A DNA stretch of 64,000 nt from Branchiostoma floridae (taxonomy: Eukaryota > Chordata > Leptocardii > Amphioxiformes > Branchiostomatidae). The position numbers and the translations under genes are program-made. The stretch lies in contig NC_049987.1 in NCBI RefSeq assembly GCF_000003815.2, forward strand, positions 6,441,781 through 6,505,780, in the 5' to 3' direction. A model generated the notes under the pieces. It saw only the letters and a program-made list of their open reading frames with translations. It was not told the origin of the DNA and ran no database searches. Below are positions 166 through 64,000 of the stretch, one piece after another. Numbering within the stretch: the first letter of the stretch is position 1; each line of letters begins with the position of its first letter.

Positions 166-3100
166 ACCACAAGAACCAGTCTATGTTGATCACGTAAGTA
201 TATATTTACATGTTTGTCGATTTTTAGCCAGTCATCTCATATGCATGAGCAGGGCCCACAAAACCTTACAAAGGATTGCCGATTGGGGGAGGGATGCAGC
301 GTTGACATGTATCACTGACCGATAGGTTTTCGCTGGACACAAATATTTGTATTTTGTAATAACATCATACAACACTGTTTGACCACAGCGGCGAGTCTGG
401 TGCTGGTAAGACTGAGAACACGAAGAAGGTTATCTCCTACTTCGCCCAGGTCGCTGCCATGGGTGGTCCTAAGAAGGCTGAAGATGAGAAGAAGATCACC
501 CTTGAGGACCAGATCGTGCAGACTAACCCCGTTCTGGAGTCCTTCGGTAACGCCAAGACCGTCAGGAACAACAACTCCTCCCGTTTCGTAAGTACATATG
601 CCACAATCAGGGAGGCAATGTCGACCGCCTCCGATCAAACATCCTTTCTAATTATGTTCTAGCGCATCGTAAACGGGTCTATTTATCATTTTTGTCATCG
701 TTAAGTTCCAATCACATCGTCATATACAAACGGATGCAATTCTTGACTGCGATATGCAGTGTTTGGATCATGTACTGTGATGTTGTAACAAAACCACATT
801 TTTCTTACCGGTATGCCTGCTAACGTTTCGGCAGTCAATCAACTGTCTCTATTTGAGGGTAATTGTAAATACTGCACTTAACACAAAGTAACATGGCTGC
901 AATTACGACATCCGAAATGCGACTGACTCATCCGTTATGTTCCAGGGTAAATTCATCAGGATCCACTTCAACACCAAGGGCAAGTTGGCTGGAGCCGACA
1001 TCGAGTCCTGTACGTATACAACTTATAATAAAACACTTTAGATTTGGTTTTATCTTTTTCGCTCTTTACCTTTGTTAGTAACGCAATGCATTTTATCANN
1101 NNNNNNNNNNNNNNNNNNNNNNNNNNNNNNNNNNNNNNNNNNNNNNNNNNNNNNNNNNNNNNNNNNNNNNNNNNNNNNNNNNNNNNNNNNNNNNNNNNTT
1201 TGGAACCGTCTTGCTTCATCCAGATCTGCTGGAGAAGGTGCGTGTGATTGAACAGCTGCCTGGTATGGAGCGTGGCTACCATATCTTCTACCAGCTGCTG
1301 TCAGGTGGCTTGAAAGAGGTCACAAGTAAGTATACGTCTATGAACGTTTCAAGAACGTCTCGAAGTGAGTTCGGCACACACGTCGTTCAGTAGTCATAGA
1401 GGATAATGTGAAAGTAATAGAAGACGTACCGTACGACAGATTATTCCAAAGCCTCGCCGAACATATCATATGAGGAGCCATTGAGGCAGCCTATAAACAA
1501 CGAATCTTTCTAATCATACATTACAGAAATGTTGATGGTGAATGAAGATGCCCACGAGTACAAGTTCTTGGAAAAGGGTGAGAAGACGATCAAGAACGTG
1601 GACGACAAGGAGGAGATGGTGTTGACGGACGAGGCCTTCGACGTGCTGGGCTTCACACAAGATGAGAAGACGAACATTTACAAGCTCACGGGAGGTCTGT
1701 GCCACTTCGGTAACATTAAGTTCAAGTCCAAGCCGAGGGAGGAGCAAGCCGAGTGCGATGGCACCGAGGGTAAGTTTCAATTTGAGTATATCATTATTTA
1801 AGTCGAAGAGATACATTTTGCTAAAGTACTCTTGCTGCTAACCATGAGACCAACTACTCTCGAACTGACAAGAACGACAACTCAAGGGAGCGAGCGCTAG
1901 CTAATCTTGTTTATATTCAATCTCTACTCAGCTGCCGACAAGATGTGCTTCCTGTACGGCCTCAACAGCGGTGAGCTGCAGAAGGGTCTGCTCAAGCCCA
2001 GGGTAAAGGTCGGCAACGAGTGGGTGTCAAAGGGCCAAAATTGCAACCAGTGCAGCTACGCCGTCAGTGCCCTGTCTAAGGGTGTGTTCGACAGGATCTT
2101 CAAGTTCCTGGTCAAGCGTTGTAACGACACCCTGGACACCAAGATGAAGAGGGAAAACTTCATTGGTGTACTGGATATTGCCGGCTTCGAGATCTTCGAC
2201 GTAAATATAATTTCTTAGATAATGCGCCACATTGAACATTTAGGCAAATATGTCTAACATTGATATGGCAATCGCAATGGAAAGTACAATAACTGGTTAA
2301 AGTCAGGCATGCTTAGGAGAGAAGTACCAAGAACGAAACATCTTTTTTGTCAGTACTGAAGCTACAATACGTTATAGCAGGTAAACGTTAACAATTCACG
2401 GAAGGGCACGTGTGGTACAAAACAATTAACCAACTTGATGGTGTTTCAATCTTCATAACAATCATATTTTCTCCATAGTTCAACAGCTTTGATCAGCTCT
2501 GCATCAACTACACCAACGAGAAGCTGCAGCAGTTCTTCAACCACCACATGTTCGTTCAGGAGCAGGAGGAGTACAAAATTGAAGGAATCGAGTGGGAGAC
2601 CATCGATTTCGGTATGGACTTGGCCAAGACTCTCGCCCTGATCGAGAAGGTGAGTAGAGGACTGATTACCGCACAATTGCATCAGTGTGAAATTGATTCT
2701 TTGTACAACTTGTGCAAGAAAATATTTTTCTTCCGGCTATGTATCTGTGAATGTGACGATTTTTCTCCATTTCAAGCCCCTGGGTATCCTGGCCATTCTG
2801 GAGGAGCAGACTATGTTCCCCAAGTCCAGCGACAAGACCTTCATCGACAAGCTGAAGGACCAGCACTTGGGCAAGCACACGAGCTTCCTAAAGCCAAAGA
2901 AGCCCAAGATCCCCAAGTACGAGGGTCACTTCGATCTAGCTCACTACGCCGGTAACGTTACCTACAACATCTGCGGCTGGCTGGAGAAGAACAAGGACCC
3001 CATGAACGAGACTGTGGTCGGCTGCTTCAAGAGGTCCTCAAATGAGCTCCTGCATGAACTCTATGCAGACTTTATGACTGCAGAGGATCAAGGTTAGTAC

Positions 3101-6100
3101 TGTCTTCTCTGCCCGGACAGGTTTGTCAACTTGACGCCACTGATGTCTGTTCTTGACCTCCTCGAGTCTAAGCCTCCACGCAACAGACTCAAGCCAGGCT
3201 CGAAATGCTCTTCGCCGCTGTAGGGGTGGCTGGCCAGTGCAGGCCGGGGGAGTTCTTACGGGGTTAGGTTAAATTTCGTCTCGCTGGCGGTGTAAACTCC
3301 AAATTCCGGCTACAAGCTTTAGCGGCGAAATCTCAAAGGGCAGCTAATCAGACAGGCTGACAGATGCAGGTCGGTGCCTAAGCACACTGGGCGGTGCCTA
3401 AGCACACTGGGCCAGGTAAATCACCTCAAAGNNNNNNNNNNNNNNNNNNNNNNNNNNNNNNNNNNNNNNNNNNNNNNNNNNNNNNNNNNNNNNNNNNNNN
3501 NNNNNNNNNNNNNNNNNNNNNNNNNNNNNNNNNNNNNNNNNNNNNNNNNNNNNNNNNNNNNNNNNNNNNNNNNNNNNNNNNNNNNNNNNNNNNNNNNNNN
3601 NNNNNNNNNNNNNNNNNNNNNNNNNNNNNNNNNNNNNNNNNNNNNNNNNNNNNNNNNNNNNNNNNNNNNNNNNNNNNNNNNNNNNNNNNNNNNNNNNNNN
3701 NNNNNNNNNNNNNNNNNNNNNNNNNNGTAACAGTAAGCAAACTCGTGCGACATGCGAATCGATTCTTGGAAACTAACACAGTCCTAAACTCCTGTGACAT
3801 CAGACTTTATTTTCGGTCTGTATATAGGTCCAACTGTCTAGGTTGACGGCCACTCTGCACACCACATACCCGCACTTCGTGCATTGTCTGATCCCCAATG
3901 AGTTGAAGACGGCTGGTCTCTTGGACGCCCCGTTGGTTTTGCACCAGCTGACTTGTAACGGTGTACTTGAGGGTATCCGTATCTGTCAGAAGGGCTTCCC
4001 CAACAAGATGGTCTTCAGGTAAGAATTCTTTGATGATTCTGCCTTGCTACGGTAGCGTACATGTGTTCAATTGTAAGGAACAATGGACATCAATGCAACT
4101 CAATAAGCAGAGGCATTATAATTTGTCGTCACCAATATGACATATAAACTATTTGCAATCTTCAACAGGGAGTTCAGGCAGCGCTACAAGCCCGTGGATC
4201 CGGTCTTAGCCAAGGAGATTGAGGAAGACCGTGAGTGCTGTGTCAAGCTCTTGGAAAAGTCCGGCCTTCCTAAAGAGGGCTATGGTGTCGGCAAGACCAA
4301 GATTTTCTTCAAGGCCGGTCAAGTCGCCCACCTTGAGGACATCCGTGACGCCAAGTTGGCTGTCATCATTACTATCATTCAGCAGCGTCTCCGAGGAAAG
4401 CTTCAGCGCCGTGCGTACGAAGTACTCAAGGATCAGAGGTAAACAAAAATAATTCACAACGTACGATTCACAAAACACCATCATTTCCAGCAAACCCACT
4501 AGACAAACCCGCCCCATCCATTTGACAAGGTATGTTGACAACCTAAGACGTAGGTGCGGCTGCAGAGAAACGCGAACCGGAGAATTATCATCACTCAGAT
4601 GAGAACTATGCGCCGGTGAAAAAAGGGCCCCGTTTTAAAAACCATAGATACGAGACCAATGGCAGTGCACGATTATGTTACACAGGGACTACAAGAAATC
4701 TTGAAGCATTCAAGCCGTTAACAAGACAGTTTTAATATCCATCTATCCTTATGATTTCCGAGGCAACTTGCCTTTCGGCTCAATGTTATCTGATAAATAC
4801 ATGTATACCTTATCGTAGGGCTGCCCTGAAGATGCTGCAGCGTAACGTCCGTAACTGGATGACCCTGCGCAACTGGGACTGGTGGAAGCTGTTCTGCACC
4901 ATCAAGCCTCTGCTGTCTCAGTCCCGAGCAGATGAGGAGCTCCGCGCTAAGGAGGAGGAGCTGGGCGAGCTTAAGGAGGAAGTGGAGAAGGAGGAGACCA
5001 CTATGGCCGAAATCCAACAGAAGCTAACTGTGGTCGAGCAGGAGAAGAATGAACTCGCTGCTCAACTGTCTTCGGTTAGTATACAGACAGGTTACCATCA
5101 ATTGCTGTGCGGTCTGTAATAGTACCGTATCGAAGTTATTGCTAAGAAAAGGTAATGTAAGGATATGGAATATTGCAAATATGAATATCCACGATAAACC
5201 TTAATCTTAGTTTCTTATATATGCCGGTAGCTGTTAAAATGTACGAATAATATTATCGGTCATTAGTTGAAACTGAGTACTACTATTAGTCAGAGTAGTA
5301 GACGGTATAAGTCAAAGTAATAGAAAACCCCTGAAGCTTGTTAAGATGTGAAAATGAATATATGATATTCCAACATATCTTTCATATCACAGGAACAAAC
5401 CAACACGGGTGACATCGCCGACAGGGCTGAGAACCTGATCAAGAACAAGGCGGACCTGGAGCAGAAGATTGTTGACTACAAGGCACTCCTTCAAGACGAA
5501 GAAGCTAGGAATTCTACGCTCAGCGCTGGAAAGCGTAAGGTAAGCTGTCGGGGACGCAATATTCGATCTTCTTCTTCGTCGTGTCATCACTACACTTTTC
5601 TGATCCAGTACTCAAAACACTCCCTTCCTCTGGGGGTCAAAGCAATAGTCGATGACATATCATGTAAACGTTTAATGATCAACGAGATATGTTCAGTCAA
5701 AAAAAGCATGCGATGAGGTGCAATGAATCATCTGTTGGTTGGAAATAAAGCATACTTTGTGTGACACGTTTGAAATAGACTTTTTGTCAGTGACGTCATT
5801 TTACCTGGCAGATTGAAGGAGAAGTCGACAATCTGAAGAAGGACCTGGAGGAGCTGGAGAAGACTCTGCAGAAGGTGGAGAAGGAGACACGCGGTGTGGA
5901 GAACAGGGTTCGCACTACCTCTGAGGAGCTGGCAGCCCAGGAGGACCAGATCGCCAAGCTGTCCAAGGAGAAGGCTAAGCTGGAACAGCTCAATGCCGTA
6001 AGTTGTAACCGATCAGTATTCTGTTACCAAGGAAACCATGGGTAGCATACGCAAACTACCATGGTTTGGACACAGAAAGTGGTTATCGTTAATAGAATTC

Positions 6101-9100
6101 TATAAGTAAAACTAACTTCCATGTAGAATAACGAAGTAATTTCAAAGTTTGCGTTGACGAAGTATGAGGCAATTTTCTGAATGCCCCACTGTAAGTTGCT
6201 CTGAGATCAATGCTTATTTTGACCTATCCTCACATCAGTTTTAACATCCCTACAGACCACCTTGGAGGATCTGCAGAAGGAGGAGGACAAGGTCAACAGC
6301 CTCAGCAAGCTCAAGGCCAAGCTCGAGCAGCAACTGGATGATGTAAGTATTAAAATTCAATGCAATAACTCACAGAAAACCACGAATTTAAGGTTATCAT
6401 ATTCGCAAGGTGTGTATATTGTGTCAACAAACAATATCTAGCTGTATTCAAACAGTTCATTCAAGATTACTCATAGTCTTGTAATTTTCTAATGCCACGC
6501 ACTTAGCTCGAAGAGAACCTGGATCGCGAGAAGAAGGCACGTGCCGAGGCCGAGAGGCTAAAGAGGAAGTTGGAGGGTGACCTGAAGGCCTCGCAGGAGA
6601 CTTTGGGAGGTCTGGAGAACGAGAAGGCCGACCTGGAGGAGCGCATCAAGAAGTAAGATCCCCTCGAAACGTTCATGAAAACAGAAGTGGAATTGCTACA
6701 TTTACACTGTCCCTTAGTTCGGACGCACCAGGAAAATTTTACTAAGACAATAATACCCTCCTTATTTCCGTCTGTGCTAAACAGGAAGGAGTTTGAGATC
6801 AAGGGACTCGAGGCTAAGCTGGAGGACGAGCAGGGTCTTGTAACCTCTCTGCAGAAGAAGATCAAGGAACTGCAGGGCCGCATCGCGCAGCTTGAGCAGG
6901 AGCTTGAGGCCGAGAGGAACGCCCGTGCCAAGGTCGATAAGCAGAGGGCTGACCTGGCTCGTGAGCTCGAGGATCTGGGAGACCGTCTGGAAGAGGCCGG
7001 TGGTGCCACCGCCGCCCAGGCTGAGGTCAACAAGAAGCGCGAAGTCGAGCTGCAGAAACTCCGCCGCGAGCTGGAGGAGTCCAACATGCAGCATGAGGCC
7101 ACCGTCGCTGCCCTCCGAAAGAAGCTGTCCGACGCTAGCTCTGAGCTGGGCGAGCAGGTAGAGAACCTGCAGCGCGTCAAGGCTAAGCTGGAGAAAGAGA
7201 AGACCACTCTCAAGATGGAGGTCGATGACCTGGCCACCAACGTCGAGGCCATCACCAAGGGCAAGATAAACGTGGAGAAGGCTAACCGTGGCCTCGAGGA
7301 GCAGATTGCCGAGTCCAACGTCAAGATCGAAGAGTCCGGCAGGCAGATCCAGGAACTTACGTCCTTGAAGTCCCGCTTTGAGACCGAGAATAATGAGATC
7401 AGTCGCCAGCTCGAGGAGTCCGAGAGCCAGTGCAGCCAGTTGGGCCGTGCCAAGAGTATGCTCAACCAGCAGCTCGAGGAGCTGAAGCGCCAGCTTGAGG
7501 AGGAGACCAAGGCCAAGAACCACCTGGCTCACCAGCTGCGTGCTGCCCAGCATGACTGCGACACCCTGAAGGTTCAGCTGGAAGAGGAGCAGGAAGGCAA
7601 GGCTGAGATCCAGCGTGCCCTGTCCAAGGCTAACACAGAGGTCACTGCCTGGCGTGCCAAGTATGAGTCCGACGCCATCCAGCGCGCAGAGGAACTGGAA
7701 GATGCCAAGAAGAAGCTGGCTGCCCGTCTTCAGGATGCTGAGGAACAGGTGGAGGCTGCCAATGCCAAGTGCAGTTCTCTGGAGAAGGCCAAGAACAGGC
7801 TCGCCGGTGAGGTCGAGGATCTCATGATCGACGTTGAGCGGGCCAATGCCGCGGCAGCCCAGCTGGAAAAGAGGCAGCGTCTAATTGACAAGCAGATCGC
7901 CGAGTGGAAAACAAAATGCGAAGAAATTGGTGCGGAGCTGGAGACCTCTACCAAGGAGGCTCGTGCCTATGCCAACGAGCTGTACAAGCTGAAGGGACAG
8001 TATGAGGAAACCATGGAGGCTCTTGAAAACCTGAAGAAGGATAACAAGTCTCTGCATGGTACGGAAGCGTTCAATGTTGCTTTTGTGAGAAAGATTAGAC
8101 GTTGTTATTTGTTGTTCATAATAAATGTGGACAATGAATGAGAATAGAAATGATTTTTATAGCATACAAATGTCATCTTGAACTAGACATGATGATGAAA
8201 TGGTTCAATCTGCTAATAACGCCCTATTCTTTGACGACTTCTTGAAGACGAAATCCACGAGCTAACCGACCAGCTTGGCGAGAGTGGTAAGAACGTCCAT
8301 GAGCTCGAGAAGGCCAAGAAGCGTCTGGAGGTAGAAAAGGAAGAACTACAGACCGGCCTGGAGGAGGCAGAGGGTGCACTGGAAGTCGAGGAGGGCAAGG
8401 TTTTGCGTGTCCAGCTCGAATTGTCTCAGCTCAAGGCTGATATCGACCGCAGGCTGGCCGAGAAGGACGAAGAATTTGAAAATACACGGTAAGCAAATCC
8501 CTCTGTTAAGATACGTTTGATCATTGTTTTGTCGATGACTTGTTTTCTGCTAAAATTTGTCATGTGTGTATTTTTGTTATTCTTGATCTTCAAACTCAAT
8601 CTTAAGGTATTTTTGTGATTAAAATCATTAATGTTAGGAAGAACCACCAGAGGGCATTGGATGCCCTGCAGACCACCCTGGACGTGGAGGCCAAGGGAAG
8701 GAACGAGGCTGTCAGGGCCAGGAAGAAGCTGGAGGCCGATTCCAATGAGGTCGAGGCTGCTCTCGAAAACGCTACCAAGGCCAACAACGAGGCCAGGAAG
8801 ACCATCAACAAGCTCCAGAACCAGATCCAGGAAGTTCAGGCCCAGATTGACGACGAGCAGAGGGCACGTGAGGAGGCCCGCGAGCATCTCGCCATGTCTG
8901 AACGCCGCTCAAACATGTTGACGGCTGAGCTGGAAGAGCTTCGCAATGCCCACGACCAGGCCGAGAGGGCCCGCAAGATGACCGAGGCCGAGCTTGTGGA
9001 GTCTTCCGACCGCGTTGGCGAGCTGTCCGCTCAGAACACTTCCCTGGCCGGCCACAAGAGGAAGCTCGAGGGTGAGATCCAGACCCTGCAGGCTGAGCTG

Positions 9101-10333
9101 GACGAGGTTATGGCTGAGCACAGGCAGACCGAGGAGAAGGCAAAGAAGGCCATTGCTGATGTAAGTTATCTATAGGAGAAGGCAAAGAAGGCCATTGCTG
9201 ATGTAAGTTATCTATATTTCTCTGTACGCCTATTGATTATTTCCAACACCACCGTATCTGTTTATGGGTATGAATATGTATGTATGTATGTATGTCTTAA
9301 GTTGGTTATTACGTTTGTGTTATAATTCATATTCATATCAAACAGGCCTCCCGCATCTCAGAAGACCTGCGACAGGAGCAGGAACACACCGCTCACATCG
9401 AGAAGAGTAAGAAGAACCTGGAAGCCTCCATCAAGGACCTGCAGAGGAGACTGGACGAGGCTGAGGCTATTGCGATGAAGGGTGGCAAGCGCGCACTGCA
9501 GAAGCTGGAAGCCAAGGTACCTATGACTTAGTACCGGTTTACTTTGCATTTGGCCAATTTCTCTTTGACGAACTCAGTATGTAACAGCTTAAAGTTTAAG
9601 TGACTGAGAGAAATTGCCTTTCGTTTTACTAACACAGGTGCGTGACCTGGAGTCAGAACTCGACACTGAGCAGAGGCGCCACCAGGAGACCCTGAAGAAC
9701 CTGAGGAAGAATGAGCGCCGTCTCAAGGAGTTGAGCTTCCAGGCCGACGAGGACCGCAAGAAGGAGGAGCGCATGCAGGAGATGGTCGAGAAGCTGCAGC
9801 TGAAGATCAAGACTTACAAGAGACAAGTGGAGGATGCTGTATGTTATCAATATCATTTCAACGCATATTATCTATTTTTTCTAATAGGCTGCTGATACAG
9901 GTAGTGTCCATTAATTGCAACATTTATAGGGAAGCAGTTTAACTGGTCAAGAAAATAAATATTTTACTATAAATCAGCTACATAATACTGTAGTGCAATG
10001 ACAAGTTTTCTGTCGTATGCACCGATTTACAGGAGGAACAAGCCAACGTTAACCTGGCGAAGTGGCGCAAGACCCAACACGATCTGGAGGATGCCCAGGA
10101 GAGAGCCGAGATGGCCGAGTCCGCCCTGGGCAAGATGCGCGCCCAGCACCGCTCTGCAGTAAGTCTTTAGACTTGGCCTTTTCTATTGTTCCAAATTTCT
10201 ATAGGACATTGAGTTACATGTAAGGGAATGCGGAATTTCAAGACGTTTCCTCCATTTTTGTCATTAATTTTTTTGCTTCCAACCTTGAAACTGATGACTT
10301 TGTCATGCCTTTTTCTTTCACCAGCACAAGTAG
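166..10333 (+). CDS. MHC-1: sarcomeric myosin heavy chain, 5'-partial
   Basis: This is an actin-based motor of the thick filament, with an ATPase head, light-chain-binding neck and coiled-coil rod. The window opens in intron 3, so coding exons 1-3 are missing. Exons by conserved GT-AG sites and phase: 166-193, 389-587, 946-1009, 1224-1325, 1527-1769, 1932-2200, 2479-2649, 2777-3092, (exon 12 lost in an N gap), 3828-4018, 4169-4438, 4819-5074, 5393-5539, 5812-5997, 6256-6342, 6507-6652, 6785-8058, 8248-8488, 8638-9160, 9346-9516, 9638-9838, 10033-10158, 10325-10333. The P-loop GESGAGKT, switch I NNNSSRF, switch [10 protein letters not shown] and [11 protein letters not shown] are all present. 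Odd points: FVRC reads FVHC in exon 13; exon 22 ends in a duplicated splice donor; the tail ends RSAHK rather than RSASGKK. The frame is open throughout the visible exons. The family call is certain; exact ends rest on splice consensus and paralogue comparison. Confidence 0.93.
1099..1198. other. Assembly gap (100 N) in MHC-1 intron 6
   Basis: A run of exactly 100 N interrupts intron 6, 25 bases before exon 7. A round 100 usually denotes unknown length. The sequence left of the gap runs on directly across the point where MHC-3 and MHC-4 carry a LINE-like insertion, so MHC-1 lacks that insertion. Confidence 0.98.
3372..3411. repeat. 20-bp tandem duplication in MHC-1 intron 11
   Basis: The block beginning CGGTGCCTAAGCACACTGGG is present twice, at 3372-3391 and 3392-3411. 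MHC-3 and MHC-4 have it once. It lies just left of the 295-N gap, so either a real slippage event or an assembly artefact is possible. Confidence 0.85.
3432..3726. other. Assembly gap (295 N) hiding MHC-1 exon 12 (loop 2)
   Basis: Flanking sequence aligns to MHC-3 just before 39105 and at about 39400, so the gap covers the exon matching 39277-39353. That exon encodes the Gly/Lys-rich loop 2 of the actin-binding face. Its absence from MHC-1 is therefore a gap and not evidence of exon loss. Confidence 0.9.
9133..9216 (+). repeat. 42-bp tandem duplication copying the exon 22 splice donor
   Basis: Positions 9133-9174 and 9175-9216 are identical. Each copy holds the last 28 nt of exon 22 (EKAKKAIAD) plus GTAAGTTATCTATA. 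The proximal donor at 9161 gives the conserved 523-nt exon. The distal donor at 9203 would read GTA AGT TAT CTA and then a TAG stop. None of the other three genes has this duplication. Confidence 0.95.
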
Positions 10334-23232: not shown

Positions 23233-23265
<33 letters not shown>

Positions 23266-27698: not shown

Positions 27699-27715
27699 CT
27701 TCTTTGAACAAAAAA

Positions 27716-46396: not shown

Positions 46397-46411
46397 CTTC
46401 TTTGAACAAAA

Positions 46412-47842: not shown

Positions 47843-47909
<67 letters not shown>

Positions 47910-51070: not shown

Positions 51071-54000
51071 ATGCCGCCCAAGCAAGACAAGATATCCGAC
51101 GACCCTCGGGTCTACATCTACGGTGACACCAAGTTGCTGATGGAGCTCCGCTCCGCACCGTACGACGCCAAGAAGAACGTCTGGATCCCCGATGATAAAG
51201 ATTGCTACATCGCTGTGGAGGTCAAGGAAGAGAAGGGCGACAAGGTCGTGGTCCAGCTTCCCAAGGGCGCCGTAAGTACAAAATTCACTTTAAAGTGTCA
51301 CTTCGTCAGATTCGTTGCAATTTGAACATTCTTCAACTTTTTACGAATGTACAATAACCAATTTATTTCTTTTTTAACGTTCTGTAGACCAAGGATGTTC
51401 CCAAGGACAAGCTTGTCATGATGAACCCCTCCAAGTTCGTCTGCTGCGAGGACATGGCCAACATGACCTACCTGAACGACGCCTCTGTGCTGGCGACCCT
51501 CAGGGACCGTTATGCCAACGGCATGATCTACGTAAGTAGTGACTTTAAACATAAAGTTTTGACTACTCCGAAGTTCGACTTATCAAAAAGAATCGCCATT
51601 TGGTTTTATTTTTCAATTGAAGACTTGATCGAAAGCAATCACTGATGTTGACGAGAATATTCAAATACATCTCTTATCGAAGAATGCTCATTAATTGGGA
51701 CCAAGAGAAAGCATTAAAAATGTTTATAATAAACTATCTGCCGCCTGAGGATATTTCTCACAAAATAATCTTTGATAAAAACACTAGCATGCAATGACAA
51801 ACATCTCGTGAAACCTCTAGTGGTGCTCGTTAGTCAGAAGTGACGCTGAAAGAAAGTGCGAAACGCTGAGAAAAAAACACGCAAAACAAGTTGGATCAAA
51901 CAAATGTCTGAACATTATGTAAGTAAGGCCATGTGCGTTACATGCACACCCAAAGGCATTCTGGGGACATCTGTTGGTGTGCCGTGTAACATTCAGCTGC
52001 TTTGTCATGTAACATGTTGCCGCAGATCCTAAGCAACGGTTCTGTCACAATTTCGCTGAAAATCCTATGTGACTGCACCAATAACACCAGGAAGAGCTAG
52101 AAACGCATTGTGGATCCACGCGACCATGTCTCATTATGGCAATGGTGTCAATCACTGTTGGTACAAGGCGCGGGCCGCTCGCGTCATCAAAAACGGGAAA
52201 AGACAAACACGCGACATTTGGTAAACAGCAGCTGGGCACGCGCTCTGGGGAGGCTACTTCAAAAGGGATACGAACCTGTCAATCTGACGTCAGCTAACAA
52301 AGCAGGAATGCGAGGGGGGGACGTCAAACTGGGATAGACCACTGGGAAAACATTACAATACAAGGAAAGATAAAATGATAGGCCGTGACCAAAATGGACG
52401 TACCGTTTATATCGTCGGATTTCAGAAAAGCTATGACAGAATCGACCGTTGGAAAATGTTGCCCGCAAAGATGGATGTTAGACTACACATGCACTGTTGT
52501 CCCAAGAATGACCTCAACTTGCTGTACATCGTAACTTCAAGTATACATGCGTCCAGGTCCTTAAACTGCACATTCCTCGCCTGATAGTTCATTGACATAA
52601 ACCATTTTATTAAACACGAAAAGAACAAAAAATACATTCAAACGCGCTATTAATGACTAACGCAAAACTTGTATTGGCTTGACTCCGTTCGTTAACTCAT
52701 TAGTTTCTCAAGCCATAACAGTTCTCTTTCTCCTACAACAGACCTACTCCGGGTTGTTCTGCGTCGTGATCAACCCCTTCAGGCGCCTCCCTCTCTACAC
52801 AGAGGAGGTTGTGGGCATGTACCGTGGCAAGAGGCGTCAGGAAGTGCCGCCTCACTTGTTCTCTGTGGCTGACAACGCCTATCAGAACATGTTGATCGGT
52901 AAGGTCATTTCGAATTCTTGCCTTTAATCGATTGTTGACGACAAACAGTGTAGATGATTGAAACAACAACGGTTTCTTATTCTATCGTTCATATTATGCG
53001 ATGGACATTTTGACGAGAGACGTAACGCAAATTGAACTAAATTGGCATTTCAAGGTGTTTGTGAAATCAACCTCAGCTGCGTTGGTCCTTTTTCATTCCT
53101 ACTTAAAATTCCGAGTCAATCTGACGACATTCCATTCTTTTCCTCTTAATCGTGCAGACCACAAGAACCAGTCTATGTTGATCACGTAAGTATCTATTTC
53201 CGTGTTTGTCGATTTTTAGCCAGTCATCTCATATGCATGAGCAGGGCCCACAAAACCTTACAAAGGAATGCCAGTTGGGGGAGGGATGCAGCGTTGACAT
53301 GTATCACTGACCGATAGGTTAGTTTTCGCTGGACACAAATATTTGTATTTTGTAATAACATCATACAACACTGTTTGACCACAGCGGCGAGTCTGGTGCT
53401 GGTAAGACTGAGAACACGAAGAAGGTTATCTCCTACTTCGCCCAGGTCGCTGCCATGGGTGGTCCCAAGAAGGCTGAAGATGAGAAGAAGATCACCCTTG
53501 AGGACCAGATCGTGCAGACTAACCCCGTTCTGGAGTCCTTCGGTAACGCCAAGACCGTCAGGAACAACAACTCCTCCCGTTTCGTAAGTACATATGTCAC
53601 AATCAGTGAGGCGATGTCGACCGCCTCCGATTAAACATCCTTTCTAATTAATATGTTCTAGCGCATCGTAAACGGGTCTATTTATCATTTTTGACATCGT
53701 TAAGTTTCAATCACATAGCCATAGACAGACTGATGCAATTCTTGACTGCGATAAAATCATATGCAGTGTTTGGATCATGAACTGTGTAACAAAAACACAT
53801 TTTCCTTACCGGTATGCCTGCTAACGTTTCGGCAGTCAATCAACTGTCTCTATTTGACACAAAGTAACATGGCTGCAATTACGACATCCGAAATTTAACT
53901 TATTCATCCGTTATGTTCCAGGGTAAATTCATCAGGATCCACTTCAACACCAAGGGCAAGTTGGCTGGTGCCGACATCGAGTCCTGTACGTATACAACTT

Positions 54001-57000
54001 ATAATAAAACACTTTAGATTTGGTTTTATCTTTTTCACTCTTTACCTTTGTTTGTTTGTTTGTTTGTTTGAACCTTTATTTATTCATTAGAAGCTCAAAT
54101 CGACCAGCAGGCCGCTTTTCATTGAGATCATGAGGGAGGTCAGGGTAATATGAAATATAATACAGATACAGATTACATTGAGTACTATTAGATTCATCAA
54201 CCTATATCACTACACATACATGGTACAAAACACATAGGACGCAATACATTTTATCATTATTTTGTTTGGTATTAATCCACCGTTTTATATGAAGTTTGGA
54301 ACCGTCTTGCCTCATTCAGATCTGCTGGAGAAGGTGCGTGTGATTGAACAGCTGCCTGGTATGGAGCGTGGCTACCATATCTTCTATCAGCTGCTGTCAA
54401 ATGGCATGAAAGAGGTCACAAGTAAGTATACGTCTGTGAACGTTTCAAGAACGTTTAGAAGTGAGTTCGGCACGTACGTCATTCTGTAGTCATAGGAGAT
54501 AATGTGAAAGTACTAGAAGACGTACCGTACGATAGATTATTCCAAAGCCTCGCCGAACATATCATATGAAGAGCCATTGAGGCAGCCTATAAACAACGAC
54601 GTTTTCTAATCATACATTACAGAAATGTTGATGGTGAATGAAGATGCCCACGAGTACAAGTTCTTGGAAAAGGGTGAGAAGACGATCAAGAACGTGGACG
54701 ACAAGGAGGAGATGCAGTTGACGGACGAGGCCTTCGACGTATTGGGCTTCACCCAAGATGAGAAGACGAACATCTACAAGCTCACGGGAGGTCTGTGCCA
54801 CTTCGGTAACATTAAGTTCAAGTCCAAGCCGAGGGAGGAGCAAGCCGAGTGCGATGGCACCGAGTGTAAGTTTCAATTTGAGTATATCATTATTTAAGTC
54901 GAAGAGATACATTTTGCTTAAGTACTCTTGCTGCTAACCATGAGACCAACTACTCTCGAACTGACAAGAACCACAACTCAAGGGAGCGAGCGCTAGCTAA
55001 TGTTGTGCATATTCAATCTCTACTCAGCTGCCGACAAGATGTGCTTCCTGTACGGCCTCAACAGCGGTGAGCTGCAGAAGGGTCTTCTCAAGCCAAGGGT
55101 AAAGGTCGGCAACGAGTGGGTGTCAAAGGGCCAAAATTGCAACCAGTGCAGCTACGCCGTCAGTGCCCTGGCTAAGGGTGTGTTCGACAGGATCTTCAAG
55201 TTCCTGGTCAAGCGTTGTAACGACACCCTGGACACCAAGATGAAGAGGGAAAACTTCATTGGTGTACTGGATATTGCCGGCTTCGAGATCTTCGACGTAA
55301 ATATAATTTCTTAGATAATGCGCCACATTGAACATTTAGGAAAAGGCAAATATGTCTAACATTGATATGACAATCGCAATGGAAAGTACAATAACTGGTT
55401 AAAGTCAGGCATGCTTATTAGATAAGTACCAAGAACGAAACATATTTTTTGTCAGTACTGAAGCTACAATACGTTATAGCACGCGCAGATAAACGTTAAC
55501 AGTTCATGGAAGGGCACGTGTGGTACAAAACAATTAACCAACTTGATGGTGTTTCAAATGTTAATAACAATCATATTTTCTCCATAGTTCAACAGCTTTG
55601 ATCAGCTCTGCATCAACTACACCAACGAGAAGCTGCAGCAGTTCTTCAACCACCACATGTTCGTTCAGGAGCAGGAGGAGTACAAAATTGAAGGAATCGA
55701 GTGGGAGACCATCGATTTCGGTATGGACTTGGCCAAGACTCTCGCCCTGATCGAGAAGGTGAGTAGAGGACTGATTACCGCACACTTGCATCAATGTGAA
55801 ATAGATTTCTTGTACAATTTGTGCAAGACAATATTTTTCTTCCGGCTATGTATCTGTGAATGTGACAATTTCTCTCCATTTCCAGCCCCTGGGTATCCTG
55901 GCCATTCTGGAGGAGCAGACTATGTTCCCCAAGTCCAGCGACAAGACCTTCATCGACAAGCTGAAGGACCAGCACTTGGGCAAGCACACTAGCTTCCTGA
56001 AGCCAAAGAAGCCCAAGATCCCCAAGTACGAGGGTCACTTCGATTTGGCTCACTACGCCGGTAACGTTACTTACAACATCTGCGGCTGGCTGGAGAAGAA
56101 CAAGGACCCCATGAACGAGACTGTGGTCGGCTGCTTCAAGAGGTCCGCAAATGAGCTCCTGCATGACCTCTATGCAGACTTCATGACTGCAGAGGATCAA
56201 GGTTAGTGCTGTCTTTCTTTGCACGAACAAGTTTGTCAACTCGACGCCACTGATGTCTTTTCTTGACCTCCTCGTGTCTAAGCCTCCACGCAACAGACTC
56301 GAGAGCCTGGGTACCATACCATAGAGGAGCTCGAGATGCTCTTCGGTGCTGTAGGGGTGGCTGGCCCGTGCAGTTAATTAGTGCAGGCCGGGGGAGTTCT
56401 TACGGAGTTAGGTTAAATTTCGTCTCGCTGGCGGCGTAAACTCCAAATGCCGGCTACAAGCTTTAGTGGCGAAATCTCTAAGGGTAGCTAATCAGACAGG
56501 CTGACAGATGCAGGTCGGTGCCTAAACACAATGGGCCGGGTAAATCACCTCAAAGTCGACCAGCGGAGAATGGTACCCAGTCTAAACAGACTCCTGAGTA
56601 ACGCTAACGTTTTATTCGGAATTTTGTGCGTAATCATACAATTAAATCCATGCTCGGCTGATTATGCTGTGGTACAAATACGGCTTTATCTTAAACGTTC
56701 AAAATAGCTACTCATGGACATGTTTCTACCCTCTGTAGCTGCTGCCCAGAAGAAGTCAGGTGGTGGCGGAAAGAAAAAGGGAGGCGCTCTCCAAACCGCC
56801 TCTGCAACTCACAGGGTAAAAACAATTGACATTTTACCCATGAATTTCAAAACTCAAGGTAACAGTAAGCAAAGTCGTGCCACATACGAATCGATTCTTT
56901 GAAACTAACACAGTCCTAAACTCCTCTAACATCTTCTTTATTCTCTGTCTGTATATAGGACCAACTGTCTAGGCTGATGGCCACTCTGCACACCACATAC

Positions 57001-60000
57001 CCGCACTTCGTGCGTTGTCTGATCCCCAATGAGTTGAAGACGGCTGGTCTCTTGGACGCCCCGTTGGTTTTGCACCAGCTGACTTGTAACGGTGTACTCG
57101 AGGGTATCCGTATCTGTCAGAAGGGCTTCCCCAACAAGATGGTCTTCAAGTAAGACTTCTTTGATGATTCTGCCTTGCTACGGTAGTGTGTTCAATTTTA
57201 AGAAAAAGATTCGGCATCAATGCAACTCAAAAAGCAGAGGCATAATAATTTGTCGTCATTAATGTGACATATCAACTATTTGCAATCTTCAACAGGGAGT
57301 TCAGGCAGCGCTACAAGCCCGTGGACCCGGTCTTAGCCAAGGAGATTGAGGACGACCGTGAGTGCTGTGTCAAGCTCTTGGAAAAGTCCGGCCTTGCTAG
57401 CGATGGCTATGGTGTCGGCAAGACCAAGATTTTCTTCAAGGCCGGCCAAGTCGCCCACCTTGAGGACATCCGTGACGCCAAGCTGGCTGTCATCATCACT
57501 GTCATCCAGCAGCGCATCAGAGGCAGACTGCAACGTGTTGAGTATGAGCGCCTCAAGGATCAGAGGTACTGTATCAAATCTCTCATTACCACAATAGCTC
57601 TGGTCAGATATCTACACAGAATGTTAGGAAGCCTACTAAAATGCATGTGGACGCATGACTTTTCTTCTCTTTTGTGAGATATAAAAAATATTAGTGTTAT
57701 GAGTCAAACGACTAGTTTCGCAGTTTTGTAACAGAAATCGTTCTCCGATCGCAGGGCTGCCCTGAAGATGCTGCAGCGTAACGTCCGTAACTGGATGACC
57801 CTGCGCAACTGGGACTGGTGGAAGCTGTTCTGCACCATCAAGCCTCTGCTGTCTCAGTCTCGGGCAGATGAGGAGCTCCGCAATAAGGAGGAGGAGCTGA
57901 CCGAGCTTAAGGAGGATATGGAGAAGGAAGAGACCACCATGGCTGACATCCAGCAGAAGTTGACTGTGGTCGAGCAGGAGAAGAATGAACTCGCCGCTCA
58001 ACTGTCTGCGGTTAGTACTGAGAAAATGTTACCATCAATTGCTGTGCAGTCTGAACTAGTGCCCTCGCTGGGGGATAATGGTAAGAAGTAGAAACTTCAG
58101 GATAAGAAACAATATACATTTTCTAGTGTTTGACCATTCAGCATATTCATACTCGTTTGAACCCAATTGACAGGAACAAACCAACACGGGTGACATCGCC
58201 GACAGGGCCGAGAACCTCATCAAGAATAAGGCGGACATGGAGCAGAAGATTATTGACTACAAGGAACTTCTGCAGGAGGAAGAGTCTAAGAACTCCCAGC
58301 TCGGTGCCGCTAAGCGCAAGGTACGTTTCATCCCTTGTGTTTCAGTCACAAGAACCGGTGTAAATCATGCATTCCAGATATTACAACCACGAAACACTTT
58401 CATTCAAATATTAGATAACAGTGAAGATAACTGAGAACGGGTTCGTTTCGCTAAAACAGGTTGAGGGAGAGGTGGACAACCTGAAGAAGGACCTGGAGGA
58501 GATGGAGAAGACTCTGCAGAAGGTGGAGAAGGAGACACGCGGTGTGGAGAACAGGGTTCGCACCACCTCTGAGGAGCTGGCAGCCCAGGAGGACCAGATC
58601 GCCAAACTGTCCAAGGAGAAGGCTAAGCTGGAACAGCTCAATGCCGTACGTATGCCTACTTGACAAAGAACTGTTATGGCAAACTCTGATCTCCGAATGC
58701 TACAGTTTTGTAGTTCAAAATAGTTCAAGAAAACGTTCATATTTTATATAAAACTAGATTAACAGAGTAAAGCAATAGCTGTGAATACTCATTATCTTCA
58801 TTTGAAATTAATACAGACCACCTTGGAGGATCTGCAGAAGGAGGAGGACAAGGTCAACAACCTCAGCAAGCTCAAGGCCAAGCTCGAACAGAACTTGGAT
58901 GACGTAAGTAATGCTTTGCTTCTTTTGTTATTACCTTGCTAAAAGCTGAGAATTAAGAGCTAATATAACAAGCCCGTTGTTTTGTTTCCAACTACCTTCC
59001 CCATCGTCTTTAAATCTGAACTAATCGCTTTCTCTTATCTTTATCTAGCTGGAGGAGAACCTGGATCGCGAGAAGAAGGCGCGTGCCGAAGCCGAGAGGC
59101 TGAAGAGGAAGCTGGAGGGTGACCTGAAGGCCGCACAGGAGACTTTGGGAGGTCTGGAGAACGAGAAGGCCGACCTGGAGGAGCGCATCAAGAAGTATGA
59201 AATTATTTTTGCTGTTCTAAACTATCAAAGAGTACAAAAATAGAAATATAGACAAAAACTTAAATACTGGTTTATATTTCATTCCGAGATTTTTAAACCT
59301 TCGCTTATATCTCTTTCCCTGCTTCCGACAGGAAGGAGTTTGAGATCAAGGGCCTTGAGGCTAAGCTGGAGGACGAGCAGGGTCTTGTCACCTCTCTGCA
59401 GAAGAAGATCAAGGAACTGCAGGGCCGCATCGAGGAGCTTGAGCAGGAGCTTGAGGCCGAGAGGAACGCCCGTGCCAAGGTCGATAAGCAGAGGGCTGAC
59501 CTGGCTCGTGAGCTCGAGGATCTGGGAGACCGTCTGGAGGAGGCCGGTGGTGCCACCGCCGCTCAGGCTGAGGTCAACAAGAAGCGCGAAATTGAGCTGC
59601 AGAAACTCCGCCGCGAGCTGGAGGAGTCCAACATGCAGCATGAGGCCACCGTCGCTGCCCTCAGGAAGAAGCTGACCGACGCTAGCTCTGAGCTGGGCGA
59701 GCAGGTGGAGACTCTGCAGCGCGTCAAGGCTAAGCTGGAGAAGGAGAAGACCACCCTCAAGATGGAGGTCGATGACCTGGCCACCAATGTCGAGGCCATC
59801 TCAAAGGGCAAGTTGAACGTGGAGAAGGCAAACCGTTCCCTCGAGGAGCAGATCGCCGAGTCCAACGTCAAGATCGAGGAGTCCGGCAGGCAGATCCAGG
59901 AACTTACGTCATTAAAGTCCCGCTTTGAGACCGAGAATAATGAGACCAGCCGCCAGCTCGAAGAGTCCGAGAGCCAGTGCAGCCAGTTGGGCCGTGCCAA

Positions 60001-63000
60001 GAGCATGCTCAACCAGCAGCTCGAGGAGCTGAAGCGCCAGCTTGAGGAGGAGACCAAGGCCAAGAACCACCTGTCTCACCAGCTCCGTGCTGCCCAGCAT
60101 GACTGCGACACCCTGAAGGTTCAGCTGGAAGAGGAGCAGGAAGGCAAGGCCGAGATCCAGCGTGCCCTGTCCAAGGCTAACACAGAGGTCACTGCCTGGC
60201 GTGCCAAGTATGAGTCCGACGCCATCCAGCGCGCCGAGGAGCTGGAAGATGCCAAGAAGAAGCTGGCTGCCCGTCTGCAGGATGCTGAGGAACAGGTGGA
60301 GGCCGCCAATGCCAAGTGCAGCTCTCTGGAGAAGGCCAAGAACAGGCTCGCCGGTGAGGTCGAGGACCTCATGATCGACGTTGAGCGGGCCAATGCTGCT
60401 GCAGCTCAGCTAGAGAAGAAGCAGCGTCTGGTTGACAAGCAGATTGGCGAGTGGAAGACCAAGTGCGAGGAGATCGGTGCTGAGCTGGAGACCTCAACTA
60501 AGGAGGCTCGTGCCTACGCCAACGAGCTGTATAAGCTGAAGGGACAGTATGAGGAAACCATGGAGGCCCTGGAATCGCTCAAGAAGGAGAACAAGACTCT
60601 ACATGGTAAAACGAGTTTTTGTTGCTAGCTTCCTTTCTTACAATTTTGTGATATCTTCCTGTAATTCTTCCATAAGCCGTGATTATAGACTACATAAATC
60701 ATTACATGGAAGTTCGATCTTTCGAACTTAAATAATGGACCGATCTCGAGGCCCCGTCCCCTGTTCGATCATGTTCTATTTCGAACAACTCCGTCAAAAA
60801 CAGCGCTTGTCGGACAGAACTGGCCGCCGACACTATTAAGCTAATAATAGCGACTTACTTCGGTTTAACTTTTTTCAGCCACGAAATCTCAGAACGGGCC
60901 GAAAAAATTGCGCTGCCTTTTTTGTTGAGGGCTACATCCACTGGGTACAGTCATTTGATGATACGGCTGATACAGGTGCGGTAAGGGCGTTATAATGTAG
61001 CCATAGTGGCAGCGGGAGGCACCGCATAGCATCATCTTGATGGTGATGAGGAGTGCCCAGTTTCTGACATGCGGTCCATGCACGTGGAAACCAGGGTACA
61101 TAAATCTGTGACAGGGTTTCTACTGCATTTGTAGCATGCATAACAGCTGCATGCATGCTCATGACAAAAACGAACACGATGGTCAAATGTGGCCCAAAAG
61201 TTTCCATTCGAACGCAGAGTATCGGGTTACCGGGGCTCCCGCGCGGTCCCCGCGGAGGGCTGACGGTGACTGAAACATCTTCTACAAGATCGTGATAGTT
61301 AGAAAAGCAACCCCTCGCACGTTTCTCGTCGATATTAAATGAAAACTGGCAGTATGTATACGTCAAATCTTACCGTGTACGTGTGCTGCACAGTTTTGTC
61401 TCAATGTTTTCTGAAATCTGCCTAGTTGGTTGATTAAGAAAGGGTGTTTGGTGGACAAAAAAAAACAAATACCATATTTAGATTGGTCCTAAATTTGACT
61501 GAAAATCCAATTTATTTATATCATATAAGTAATGATTGTAAGATCAAACTTTCTGTCTTAGGAATTTTTCAACTTGTACTTAGAACTATTTTTACAGCCA
61601 AGATAAGGTCAAAAAATCTGCTTTTTCACACTTAAAGACTCATAATTAAAAAATGCATCCATATTTCAAAAATCCCTAAGACACAAATCTGGAGATATTA
61701 GTTGTCGACAATGTAAGTCCTGAAAGAGTTGATTTGCACGCGTTTGGTAAGCGATCTAAATACCATGTTTGGTCGTATGTCGAGTCGCGCTGATAGGGAC
61801 ATGGAGTAATTGATACCGCCGCAAACAAGTGTTGTAATATTCAAGGACACCAATAACGACGCCAGCAGCTTTGTTACATGTCACATGTTCCAAACTAAGC
61901 GGCAGCAAAACTAAGCTTGCCAGATAACGTCTTATATTTATGAAAATGTTTGTTTTTCTTCTGACGTACGGCACCCAGGAAAACAAGGGCTTTTTCTGCG
62001 TGTTTACTGTAACAACCTGCAGGTGACCGCGGATGACCTCCAATAGAACGCCCGTTCTGTTCGATTACGTCATTTGGAACACGATTCGTGTTCTAAATCC
62101 CCACATAGAAGTCTGGAAATTTTGGGGCCAAATTTTACCATCGTGGAAATTGAGAGAAAAAGCAGTTCGGGCACTCGTAGAGAAGAAGCTTGTACTAAAC
62201 GCCAGCTAACAGGACCCTTCTACAAAGTCAGCAAGTGCAGAGTCCCGTGCCTTATACATACCCTGCTCTACACATGCATTCAGCCCATCAACAATATATA
62301 TATATATATATATATAATGCTAAACAGTGGCTCTGCCTCCCAAAACAGCTACACTAGGTGGATGTAGTCTTCAACAAAGAATAGCATTGCAATTTTTCTT
62401 TGGCCATTTCTGTCCCACTGCGGCTGTTTTTGACGGAGGTGTTCGAAATAGAACAGGGGGTTCTACCTGGTTCTATTTGTTCGATATGGCATTCGATCGG
62501 GATCGATCCATTATTGGTTAAGGGATTCTAATATTAAAAACTCTTCAGATGAAATCCACGAACTGACCGACCAACTTGGCGAGGGCGGCAAGACAGTCCA
62601 CGAACTCGAGAAGGCCAAGAAGCGCATGGAGGTAGAGAAGGAGGAACTGCAGACCGCCCTCGAGGAGGCAGAGGGTGCACTGGAAGTAGAGGAGGGCAAA
62701 GTTCTGCGTGTCCAGCTCGAGTTGTCTCAGCTGAAGGCTGATATCGACCGCAGGCTGGCCGAGAAGGACGAGGAGTTTGAGAACACACGGTAAGCATTCC
62801 TTTTTCGATGGAATTTCTGTCATGATTTATTATAAAGTTCAGGTTAGTCCCTTACACAATAACAAATCATTGATAAAATAGCACAACGAAGGAGGCTGAC
62901 ACTTTTATTATAAAATTCGTCATATTTCCTCATCGTCATTGCAGCAAGAATCACCAGAGGGCCTTGGATGCCCTGCAGACTACCCTGGACGTGGAGGCCA

Positions 63001-64000
63001 AGGGAAGGAACGAGGCTGTCAGGGCCAAGAAGAAGCTAGAGGGCGATGTGAATGAGGTCGAGGCCGCTCTAGAAAACGCTTCCAAGGCCAACAACGAGGC
63101 CAGGAAGACCATCAACAAGCTCCAGAACCAGATCCAGGAAGTCCAGGCCACAATCGACGACGAACAGAGGGCACGTGAGGAGGCCCGCGAGCATCTCGCC
63201 ATGTCTGAGCGCCGCTCCAACATGCTGACCGCAGAGCTCGAAGAGCTCCGCAATGGCCTTGACCAGGCCGAGAGGGCCCGCAAGATGACCGAGGCCGAGC
63301 TTGTGGAGTCTTCCGACCGCGTTGGCGAGCTGTCTGCACAGAACACCTCCCTGGCCGGCCACAAGAGGAAGCTGGAGGGTGAGATAGGAACCCTGCAGGC
63401 CGAGCTGGATGAGGTTATGTCTGAGCACAGGCAGACCGAGGAGAAGGCAAAGAAGGCCATTTCTGATGTAAGTAAATCTTTGCTCAAAAAGTGATACTCA
63501 TTCTGTGCATTTGTTTACTTTATCTTTATTCTTGTTTACGTCGTGTTATATATATTTTCTCCATTGTGTTTAACATTTCTTTGTTTCTTGAATAGGCCTC
63601 CCGCATTGCCGAGGACCTGCGCCAGGAGCAGGAACACACCGCTCACATCGAGAAGAGTAAGAAGAACATCGAAGCTGCGATCAAGGACCTGCAGAGGAGA
63701 CTGGACGAGGCTGAGGCTATTGCGATGAAGGGTGGCAAGCGCGCACTGCAGAAGCTGGAGGCCAAGGTGTCTATTGTATCTTAGTAACCGTTTATTTTGC
63801 ATATGGGCAATTTCTCTTTGACGAACTCAATATGGAACAGTTTTAAATTTAGGTGATTGAGAGAAATCGCCTTTTGTTTCACTAACACAGGTGCGTGACC
63901 TGGAGTCAGAACTCGACACTGAGCAGAGGCGCCACCAGGAGACCCTGAAGAACCTGAGGAAGAACGAGCGCCGTCTCAAGGAGCTGAGCTTCCAGGCCGA
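51071..64000 (+). CDS. MHC-4: sarcomeric myosin heavy chain, 3'-partial
   Basis: Same motor and exon plan, running off the window in exon 24. Exons: 51071-51271, 51388-51531, 52742-52898, 53158-53185, 53385-53583, 53922-53985, 54320-54421, 54623-54865, 55028-55296, 55588-55758, 55886-56201, 56739-56815, 56959-57149, 57296-57565, 57755-58010, 58174-58320, 58460-58645, 58817-58903, 59049-59194, 59332-60605, 62549-62789, 62945-63467, 63596-63766, 63891 to the edge. All exon lengths equal those of MHC-3 and no stop interrupts about 1857 residues. Head exons 1-13 are nearly those of MHC-3. The end of exon 14 and exons 15-16 differ most ([38 protein letters not shown]). Intron 20 is 1943 bp because of a mobile-element insertion. 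Only the last residues of the rod and the tail are missing. Confidence 0.95.
52034..52640. mobile_element. About 600-bp insertion in MHC-4 intron 2, unclassified
   Basis: MHC-3 reads GCAGATCGTAAGC and then TCAAACGCGCTATTAATGAC without a break. MHC-4 has about 600 bp between the same two anchors. No terminal repeats or domain were recognised, so a mobile origin is inferred only from the presence/absence pattern. Confidence 0.45.
54049..54238 (-). mobile_element. LINE/SINE-like insertion in MHC-4 intron 6
   Basis: Orthologous in position to the MHC-3 insertion at 36611-36795, with a longer TTTG microsatellite at its left edge. Confidence 0.55.
60732..62517. mobile_element. 1.8-kb DNA element with long inverted repeats in MHC-4 intron 20
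   Basis: The left arm (from 60732 to about 61210) and the right arm (from about 62085 to 62517) are imperfect reverse complements over several hundred bases. Shared landmarks are ATAATGGAYCGATC, TTCTATTTCGAACA, CTCCGTCAAAAACAGC, CTACATCCAC and CACGATGGT. TTAA flanks both sides (60728-60731 and 62518-62521). The homologous introns of MHC-1, -2 and -3 are 102-189 bp, about what remains here once the element is set aside. No transposase frame was seen. It could be a foldback-type or long-TIR piggyBac-like non-autonomous element. Confidence 0.75.

Follow-up and report, generated by a model that had tools for sequence, protein, structure and literature searches.

The stretch of Branchiostoma floridae DNA analysed here, 64,000 nucleotides of contig NC_049987.1 (C9:6441781-6505780; hereafter the window), carries four muscle myosin II heavy chain genes on the forward strand, MHC-1 to MHC-4. 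The gene models were obtained by spliced alignment and are listed with the other features in Table 1; the intron numbers of the first-pass annotation of this DNA are the coding-exon numbers. Judged by their predicted motor domain and myosin tail, the window genes are sarcomeric myosin II heavy chain genes: Exon 11 scores 95.8 bits against the Pfam myosin head PF00063 (cut-off 33.3) and exon 20 scores 218.6 bits against the myosin tail PF01576 (cut-off 38.1), the best PDB scores of exon 20 being Myosin-4 and Myosin-7; exons 14 and 15, each scored alone against Pfam, stay under the cut-offs. Extension of the window with 180 kb of flanks places the four genes, as G5 to G8, in an array of nine forward tandem genes (G1 to G9) plus at least three inverted ones. 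Our work suggests that this array has very probably been shaped by unequal crossing-over together with gene conversion, with MHC-3 arising as a hybrid and conversions following later.

Table 1. Genes, repeated units and partner switches in the window (window positions)
Feature	Position	Strand	Remarks
MHC-1 (G5)	1..10158	+	exons 4-25; 5' end lies left of the window
MHC-1 switch, exon 15	5011..5023	+	MHC-3-like left, G4-like right
MHC-2 (G6)	15300..26818	+	exons 1-25
Tandem unit, first copy (MHC-2 exon 14 to MHC-3 exon 14)	21164..40043	+	BLAST chain
MHC-3 upstream and motor segment homogenised with MHC-4	31899..39727	+	two-rate segment model
MHC-3 (G7)	33775..45490	+	putative hybrid gene, exons 1-25
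MHC-3 putative crossover junction, exon 14	39968..40043	+	MHC-4-like left, MHC-2-like right
Tandem unit, second copy (MHC-3 exon 14 to MHC-4 exon 14)	39968..57565	+	BLAST chain
MHC-3 exon 16	41011..41157	+	candidate exon-confined conversion
MHC-4 (G8)	51071..64000	+	exons 1-24, cut by window end
Exon 20, partner switches inside exon	59332..60605	+	MHC-4 coordinates; same exon in all four genes
MHC-4 exon 22, G9-like to MHC-3-like switch region	62945..63467	+	mosaic inside exon

The intron partners of the four genes change along the array. Intron identities were determined by local alignment, with z scores against shuffles, and cross-checked by BLAST at E<1e-3. The first-pass annotation had described introns 3-13 as alike in MHC-1, MHC-3 and MHC-4 and unrelated in MHC-2, and both methods agree with this: MHC-3 and MHC-4 share 91-98% identity, introns 4-13 of MHC-1 are 88-99% identical to those of MHC-3 and MHC-4, and the MHC-2 introns stay at background (z about 0 to 2), 0 of 11 having a BLAST match in MHC-3 or MHC-4 at this threshold. 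Between MHC-2 and MHC-3, identity in these introns drops to about 0.3 immediately past the splice consensus. Also as described there, intron 14 is common to MHC-1, MHC-2 and MHC-3 (89-98%) and unrelated in MHC-4, introns 15-22 and 24 pair MHC-2 with MHC-3 (85-95%), MHC-4 joins at intron 17 (79%) and intron 22 (90-94%), intron 23 is alike in all four genes (86-91%), and intron 15 of MHC-1 partially matches that of MHC-4 (71%, z 10, one 36-bp BLAST piece). Two introns need correction: In intron 2, MHC-2 is partly related to the others (76-84% over the first 164-241 bp, plus a 73-bp piece matching MHC-3), and at intron 18 MHC-4 joins weakly (82%, z 6-7). Moreover, the separation of MHC-1 from the other genes is incomplete at intron 24, where local alignment finds 75-79% identity (z 7-15), yet BLAST gives no hit; intron 24 of MHC-4 extends beyond the window and is thus outside the intron comparison.

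The switch points can be placed more closely. Those proposed at exon 14 and near intron 2 hold. The partner changes go beyond chance: Along the 5' half, the site types of MHC-1, MHC-3 and MHC-4 are clustered and switch 89 times where 137 switches are expected (0 of 10,000 permutations as low), with the maximum chi-square break at 39698, and the exon 14 switch was reached in 0 of 100,000 permutations. The switch of MHC-1 sits in exon 15 and not at intron 16 as proposed, and intron 23 forms an isolated island, not a switch point. The groups formed by MHC-1, -3 and -4, by MHC-1, -2 and -3, and by MHC-2, -3 and -4 are mutually incompatible, so that no single tree has all of them as clades. The proposal that repeated gene conversion or unequal crossing-over, and not one duplication history, lies behind this pattern is supported, and both processes are present and can be separated.

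MHC-3 combines an MHC-4-like upstream flank and motor half with a lever, rod and downstream flank that are MHC-2-like. Of its exon-14 diagnostic sites, 18/19 are MHC-4-like up to position 126 and 19/20 are MHC-2-like from position 201; over exons 13-17, the counts are 31/33 MHC-4-like before the break and 55/65 MHC-2-like after it. At the junction MHC-2 and MHC-4 share an exact run of 74 bp. From the translations, we take this place to be near the end of the converter, ahead of the first IQ, so that the motor would stem from a different paralogue than the lever and rod. The switches of MHC-2 and of MHC-4 relative to MHC-3 fall in one and the same 75-bp interval; a single crossover requires this, whereas two independent events would coincide only by chance. 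That the MHC-3 switch is one event common to both comparisons had been overlooked in the first-pass annotation. The junction is present both in MHC-1 and in MHC-3, with exon-14 variants at 57, 104, 150 and 205 that are absent from MHC-2 and MHC-4.

The surroundings of MHC-3 have the structure of a duplication product. A direct repeat starts within one gene and extends up to the corresponding point of the following gene: The copies 21164-40043 and 39842-57565 form a colinear chain of 8 BLAST pieces that includes the intergenic DNA and has unaligned stretches between the pieces. In MHC-3, the gene at the join, the upstream flank and 5' half go with the downstream parent, and the 3' half and downstream flank go with the upstream one; there is also 91% identity between its downstream flank and that of MHC-4, which is itself read as a hybrid (see below). 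MHC-3 is best read as the product of an unequal crossover because both flanks and the intergenic DNA switch along with the gene.

One unequal crossover would account for the repeat and the coincident switches but not for the low divergence in the middle of the unit. Noncoding divergence between the unit copies is about 10% each in introns 14-24 (190/1850), in the 3' flank (156/1528) and in intron 13 (14/144); it amounts to 166/2138 at 30000-33000, 43/682 at 33001-33774, 30/722 in introns 1-2 and 85/2555 in introns 3-12. Introns 3-12 differ in this respect from introns 14-24 (Fisher P 1e-20) and from intron 13 (P 0.0006). A two-rate segment model delimits 7.8 kb with 4.2% noncoding divergence as compared to 10.4% in the rest of the unit, with a gain in log-likelihood (lnL) of 70, the largest gain in 300 permutations on a coarser grid being 14; boundaries within 2 lnL span 31712-31929 and 39405-39753. 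A segment of low divergence that is internal to the unit and bounded on both sides indicates gene conversion, and we conclude that interlocus gene conversion homogenised MHC-3 with MHC-4 over their 5' halves after the duplication.

In the wider array, the motor-half introns group G4 with G6 (86%, 11/11 introns) and G5 with G7, G8 and G9 (94-96%), and introns 15-21 group G3 with G4 and G5, G6 with G7, and G8 with G9. The intergenic DNA shows the same partner pattern, which had also escaped the first-pass annotation: The spacers 3-4, 4-5 and 5-6 form one family and the spacers 6-7, 7-8 and 8-9 another, with alignment coverage of 54-100% within and 4-8% between the families. By its sequence relationships, G4 reads as another crossover hybrid, of MHC-2 and G3, with the join in exon 15. 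Its upstream flank (86.5%, 1833 aligned) and motor half are like those of G6, that is MHC-2, its downstream flank (91.0%, 1190 aligned) and rod are like those of G3, and the switch in exon 15 is marked by 38/42 sites before and 27/31 sites after it (0 of 20,000 permutations). MHC-4 is probably a third hybrid, of G9 and MHC-2 or MHC-3, with a join around exon 22: Its 5' part and 7 of its 8 introns 14-21 are related to G9, and intron 22 and the downstream flank are related to MHC-2 and MHC-3. In exon 21, 16/17 sites are G9-like and in exon 23 16/16 are MHC-3-like, and the best break over exons 19-23 has 64/120 G9-like sites before and 36/49 MHC-3-like sites after it (permutation P 0.017). All three genes read as crossover hybrids, G4, MHC-3 and MHC-4, have the polarity of a duplication product in both flanks. 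We do not claim a recombination hot spot in exons 14-15 even though three of the four switch points lie there; those of G4 and MHC-1 may be forced, since exon 15 is the last shared exon before the unrelated intron 15.

MHC-1 is probably a copy of its upstream neighbour G4 in which the motor half has been replaced by conversion, as suggested by its G4-like flanks in combination with a foreign motor half. The flanks are 97.3% (1479 aligned) and 95.7% (732 aligned) identical to those of G4, and the tail introns 15-21 are 96.5% identical. Introns 4-13 are 94-96% identical to those of MHC-3, MHC-4 and G9, and intron 14 is 98% identical to that of MHC-3 and 85% to that of G4. In exons 13-18, 39/40 diagnostic sites are MHC-3-like before the switch and 18/21 are G4-like after it.

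The third aspect that the first-pass annotation had overlooked concerns the exons, which appear homogenised even between unrelated introns. In exons 14-25 of MHC-2 and MHC-3, divergence at fourfold degenerate sites (fourfold divergence) is 56/491, or 11.4%, where the introns differ by 10.3%; it is just as low in exons 1-13 (29/250, or 11.6%), although introns 3-13 are unalignable. Over all nine genes (137 cells dropped), exons between related introns have a fourfold divergence of 198/2567, or 7.7%, as compared to 7.8% for the introns (90 exon-pair cells), and exons between unrelated introns have 3121/15069, or 20.7% (489 cells; 17.3% without G1 and G2). For comparison, simulated introns were always recognised at 30% divergence, in 88% of the trials at 40% and in 24% at 50%. 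Fourfold divergence is uneven between exons in 26 of 34 gene pairs with unrelated introns and in 1 of 10 otherwise, and it ranges from 0 to 63% across the 299 cells that have 20 or more sites and unrelated introns. A candidate for a transfer of this kind is exon 16 of MHC-3, which differs over its 147 positions at 3 from G3, at 5 from MHC-1, at 6 from G4 and at 8 from its tail partner MHC-2; the adjacent introns are unrelated to those of G3, G4 and MHC-1 (z 2.1 or less). Starting in exon 16 and reaching exon 17, MHC-1 and MHC-3 have a run of 14 concordant third positions (global P 0.0002). We rejected a fresh conversion into MHC-1 at exon 16, as MHC-1 follows G4 at 5/6 sites there; being G4-like in this exon, MHC-1 points to a transfer between MHC-3 and the lineage of G3, G4 and MHC-1. 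A second candidate tract is the third-position run shared by MHC-3 and MHC-4 in exon 20 (P 0.0104), and for the remaining window gene pairs such runs had P values of 0.27 or more. Moreover, partners switch inside exon 20 (24 informative sites, 5 switches, 11.9 expected, P 0.0008) and inside exon 22 (P 0.0097). The best reading of these data is that conversion would be confined to exons and halted by diverged introns; intron heterology may thus explain why the tracts stop at exon edges.

Partner switches, repeated units, junctions and divergence contrasts are features of the DNA itself. As to the order and the meiotic mechanism of the events, we infer the following history. Misaligned chromosomes would have crossed over inside homologous exons of the tandem array, and each such duplication would have left between its parents a hybrid that inherited its upstream flank and 5' half from the downstream parent, and its 3' half plus downstream flank from the upstream one. 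Afterwards, conversion would have homogenised the 5' halves of MHC-3 and MHC-4 and replaced most of the motor half of MHC-1, and single exons would have moved repeatedly between copies even where the introns had diverged past recognition.

Several observations weigh against this history. The data come from one assembly. At MHC-3, 10 of the 65 diagnostic sites past the exon-14 break (exons 13-17) are MHC-4-like, alignment covers 65% of the spacer between MHC-2 and MHC-3 and 82% of that between MHC-3 and MHC-4, and the uneven divergence along the unit makes crossover alone insufficient. In the upstream flank of G4, 354 bp also match G3 (93.5%). The junction of MHC-4 is blurred, with exons 19-20 mixed, as the P value of 0.017 reflects, and its upstream flank does not discriminate, G7, G8 and G9 all being alike there. 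The right edge of the foreign tract in MHC-1 lies in the gapless exon 15, and the left edge lies inside a run of 2,134 N (C9:6439647-6441780) that adjoins the left edge of the window and conceals MHC-1 exons 1-3; the pieces 1-1098 and 1199-3431 and a 728-bp upstream piece are bounded by gaps, and their placement depends on scaffolding. In its first form the history had a pure crossover origin of MHC-1 from MHC-3 and G4. This was abandoned: It predicts an MHC-2-like gene between G4 and MHC-1, where there is none, and the upstream piece is 95.7% identical to G4 (732 aligned) as compared to 84.9% to MHC-2 (747 aligned). Finally, the agreement between fourfold and intron divergence is one of the aggregate only. 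Fourfold divergence is 6.8, 5.4, 7.5, 11.2 and 9.8% in the intron-divergence bins of 0-3, 3-6, 6-10, 10-14 and 14-20%, and it is below intron divergence in G3/G4 (4.2 vs 11.5%) and G4/G6 (9.1 vs 13.9%), which leaves room for constraint on fourfold sites.

This last point bears on the idea that the exons look young because of strong selection at synonymous sites and not because of exon-confined conversion, an idea that is possible but that we regard as unlikely. It would fit the codon bias of MHC-3 (GC content at third codon positions 0.76; 106 of 174 CTN codons are CTG) as well as the slow climb of fourfold divergence with intron divergence among related introns. However, the two measures agree closely in most related pairs, such as MHC-3/MHC-4 (4.0 vs 4.1%), MHC-2/MHC-3 (10.5 vs 9.6%) and MHC-1/MHC-3 (4.0 vs 4.0%). 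In G4/MHC-1, fourfold divergence (42/421, or 10.0%) even exceeds that of the introns (4.3%), the opposite of what codon selection would give and what is expected from exon-only transfers from other copies. Neither the wide range of fourfold divergence between unrelated introns nor the switches inside exons 20 and 22 fits selection. Exon-confined conversion is therefore preferred, and codon selection may contribute to the low exon divergence.

It is improbable that MHC-3 was made by gene conversion alone. Conversion is evident elsewhere in the array, but here it would need to move half a gene together with intergenic sequence and, in addition, to produce two independent tracts whose ends coincide within the 75-bp interval of exon 14. 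Still less probable is an assembly artefact in which near-identical copies or two haplotypes were misjoined. Two runs of N lie inside MHC-1 (1099-1198 and 3432-3726), one of them swallowing exon 12, and three more, among them the one of 2,134 N, lie between G4 and the window. The divergence of 3-5% between the 5' halves is of the size of allelic divergence in amphioxus, and both the exact 74-bp match between MHC-2 and MHC-4 at the junction and a frame-shifting 5-bp insertion in MHC-2 might be expected of a misassembly. However, the window is free of N from 3727 to 64000, the unit copies differ by about 10% over their first 10.7 kb and in intron 13, the junction occurs in two genes with shared variants found in neither presumed parent, and further hybrids with this polarity have their joins in other exons. 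We also rejected two haplotypes placed in tandem, given that none of the four genes resembles another along its whole length. A single duplication history in which introns decayed unevenly or were constrained is hardly credible, since even if intron 23, alike in all four genes, were a constrained element, the three intron groups are incompatible as clades and the identity of MHC-2 and MHC-3 in introns 3-13 is lost just past the splice consensus.

The genes and their flanks have further features that we noted in passing. The 5-bp insertion in exon 20 of MHC-2 (24662-24733), as compared to the other copies, shifts the frame, and the reading frame stops soon after; it is either a real disabling mutation or a sequence error. 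In MHC-1, a perfect 42-bp tandem duplication (9132-9216) across the 3' end of exon 22 and its splice donor creates two consecutive donors. Intron 20 of MHC-4 is 1,943 bp long as compared to 103-189 bp in the other three window genes, and it contains 54-bp inverted repeats (87%) at 60772-60825 and 62402-62455; the segment 60772-62455 is probably a DNA transposon insertion. Downstream of MHC-1, MHC-2 and MHC-3 lies an element of roughly 130 bp (10896-11024, 27587-27716 and 46285-46412; 94-97% alike) that ends with ATTAAA and a run of A, the DNA around the MHC-1 copy being unrelated to that around the other two. Its counterpart on the G4 side is matched downstream of all nine forward genes, G4 included (80-96%; within longer matches for G3 and G5), and the element is probably the conserved end of the 3' untranslated region. 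The z values of its RNA fold (-0.97, -2.73 and -1.07 for MHC-1, MHC-2 and MHC-3; -0.50 for the reverse strand of MHC-1) lead to no structure claim. MHC-2 and MHC-3 share an island of 73% identity (14747-14838 and 33139-33238) about 460-640 bp ahead of their start codons; their upstream regions are mostly unrelated outside it, and it is possibly a shared promoter element. A scan of the window with Rfam at the gathering threshold and for tRNA gave no hits, and two intergenic reading frames near 49.6-50.1 kb have no Pfam match. Beyond G9, the inverted heavy chain genes, at least three, lie at C9:6534653, 6561963 and 6595156 (exon-20 pieces 67-81%). A second myosin heavy chain group occupies C5:18082148-18176473 (six matches of about 610 bp, 73-74%), and there is a single match at C5:5984092.

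Conversion or hybrids between duplicated neighbours are known from the opsin L/M genes and other mosaic tandem paralogues; unlike the myosin array, these are other genes and involve no motor/rod exchange. The process is already known from other animals. The closest precedent that we found is MYH3C of the threespine stickleback, where, as described in a preprint, tandem sarcomeric myosin heavy chain genes have a duplicated unit of about 17.6 kb (PMC12776057). The kind of event, the gene family and the polarity of the intermediate copies are alike in both cases, and the unit of the amphioxus array, 18 kb, is of similar length. The stickleback copies are highly similar and vary in number among populations, and the first duplication has been ascribed there to microhomology-mediated replication (PMC12776057). 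In contrast, the amphioxus array has its switch points in exons, its parental introns bear no relation to each other at the join, and different paralogues supply head and rod. In B. floridae, a MYH cluster of at least 12 genes on scaffold_192 without synteny with vertebrates has been described (PMC3869912), which is probably the same array, given that one contig holds nine forward copies and a minimum of three inverted ones; in the main text of that paper, the terms "gene conversion" and "concerted" do not occur. The first exons of the amphioxus genes MRF2a and MRF2b are identical, a possible one-exon conversion in a tandem cluster that its authors regard as uncertain (PMC7530620). That case comprises one exon of two genes, and the myosin array comprises many exons of nine genes with the introns as internal comparison. 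Among the listed matches from the open-access literature, no title concerns recombination within the amphioxus myosin cluster. New here are parents whose introns are unrelated, junctions that are bounded by exons and lie where motor and rod meet, and the use of introns as internal comparison.

It is tempting to speculate, though we consider it rather doubtful, that the array acts as a natural head-rod shuffler that repeatedly yields functional myosins with new motor-rod combinations, the exons evolving in concert and the introns freely. Paralogous introns too diverged to recombine would confine crossovers and conversions to the conserved exons, and of the four switch points that were mapped, three are in exons 14-15, where the motor meets the lever. 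The growth of a tandem family can be read here with unusual clarity: Junctions are placed within tens of bases, the parents still lie beside the hybrids, and intron divergence, as internal comparison, tells crossover, long conversion and exon-only conversion apart. Gene trees of such arrays, whether they are based on whole genes or on exons, reflect no single history, and the copies may be much older than their synonymous divergence implies.

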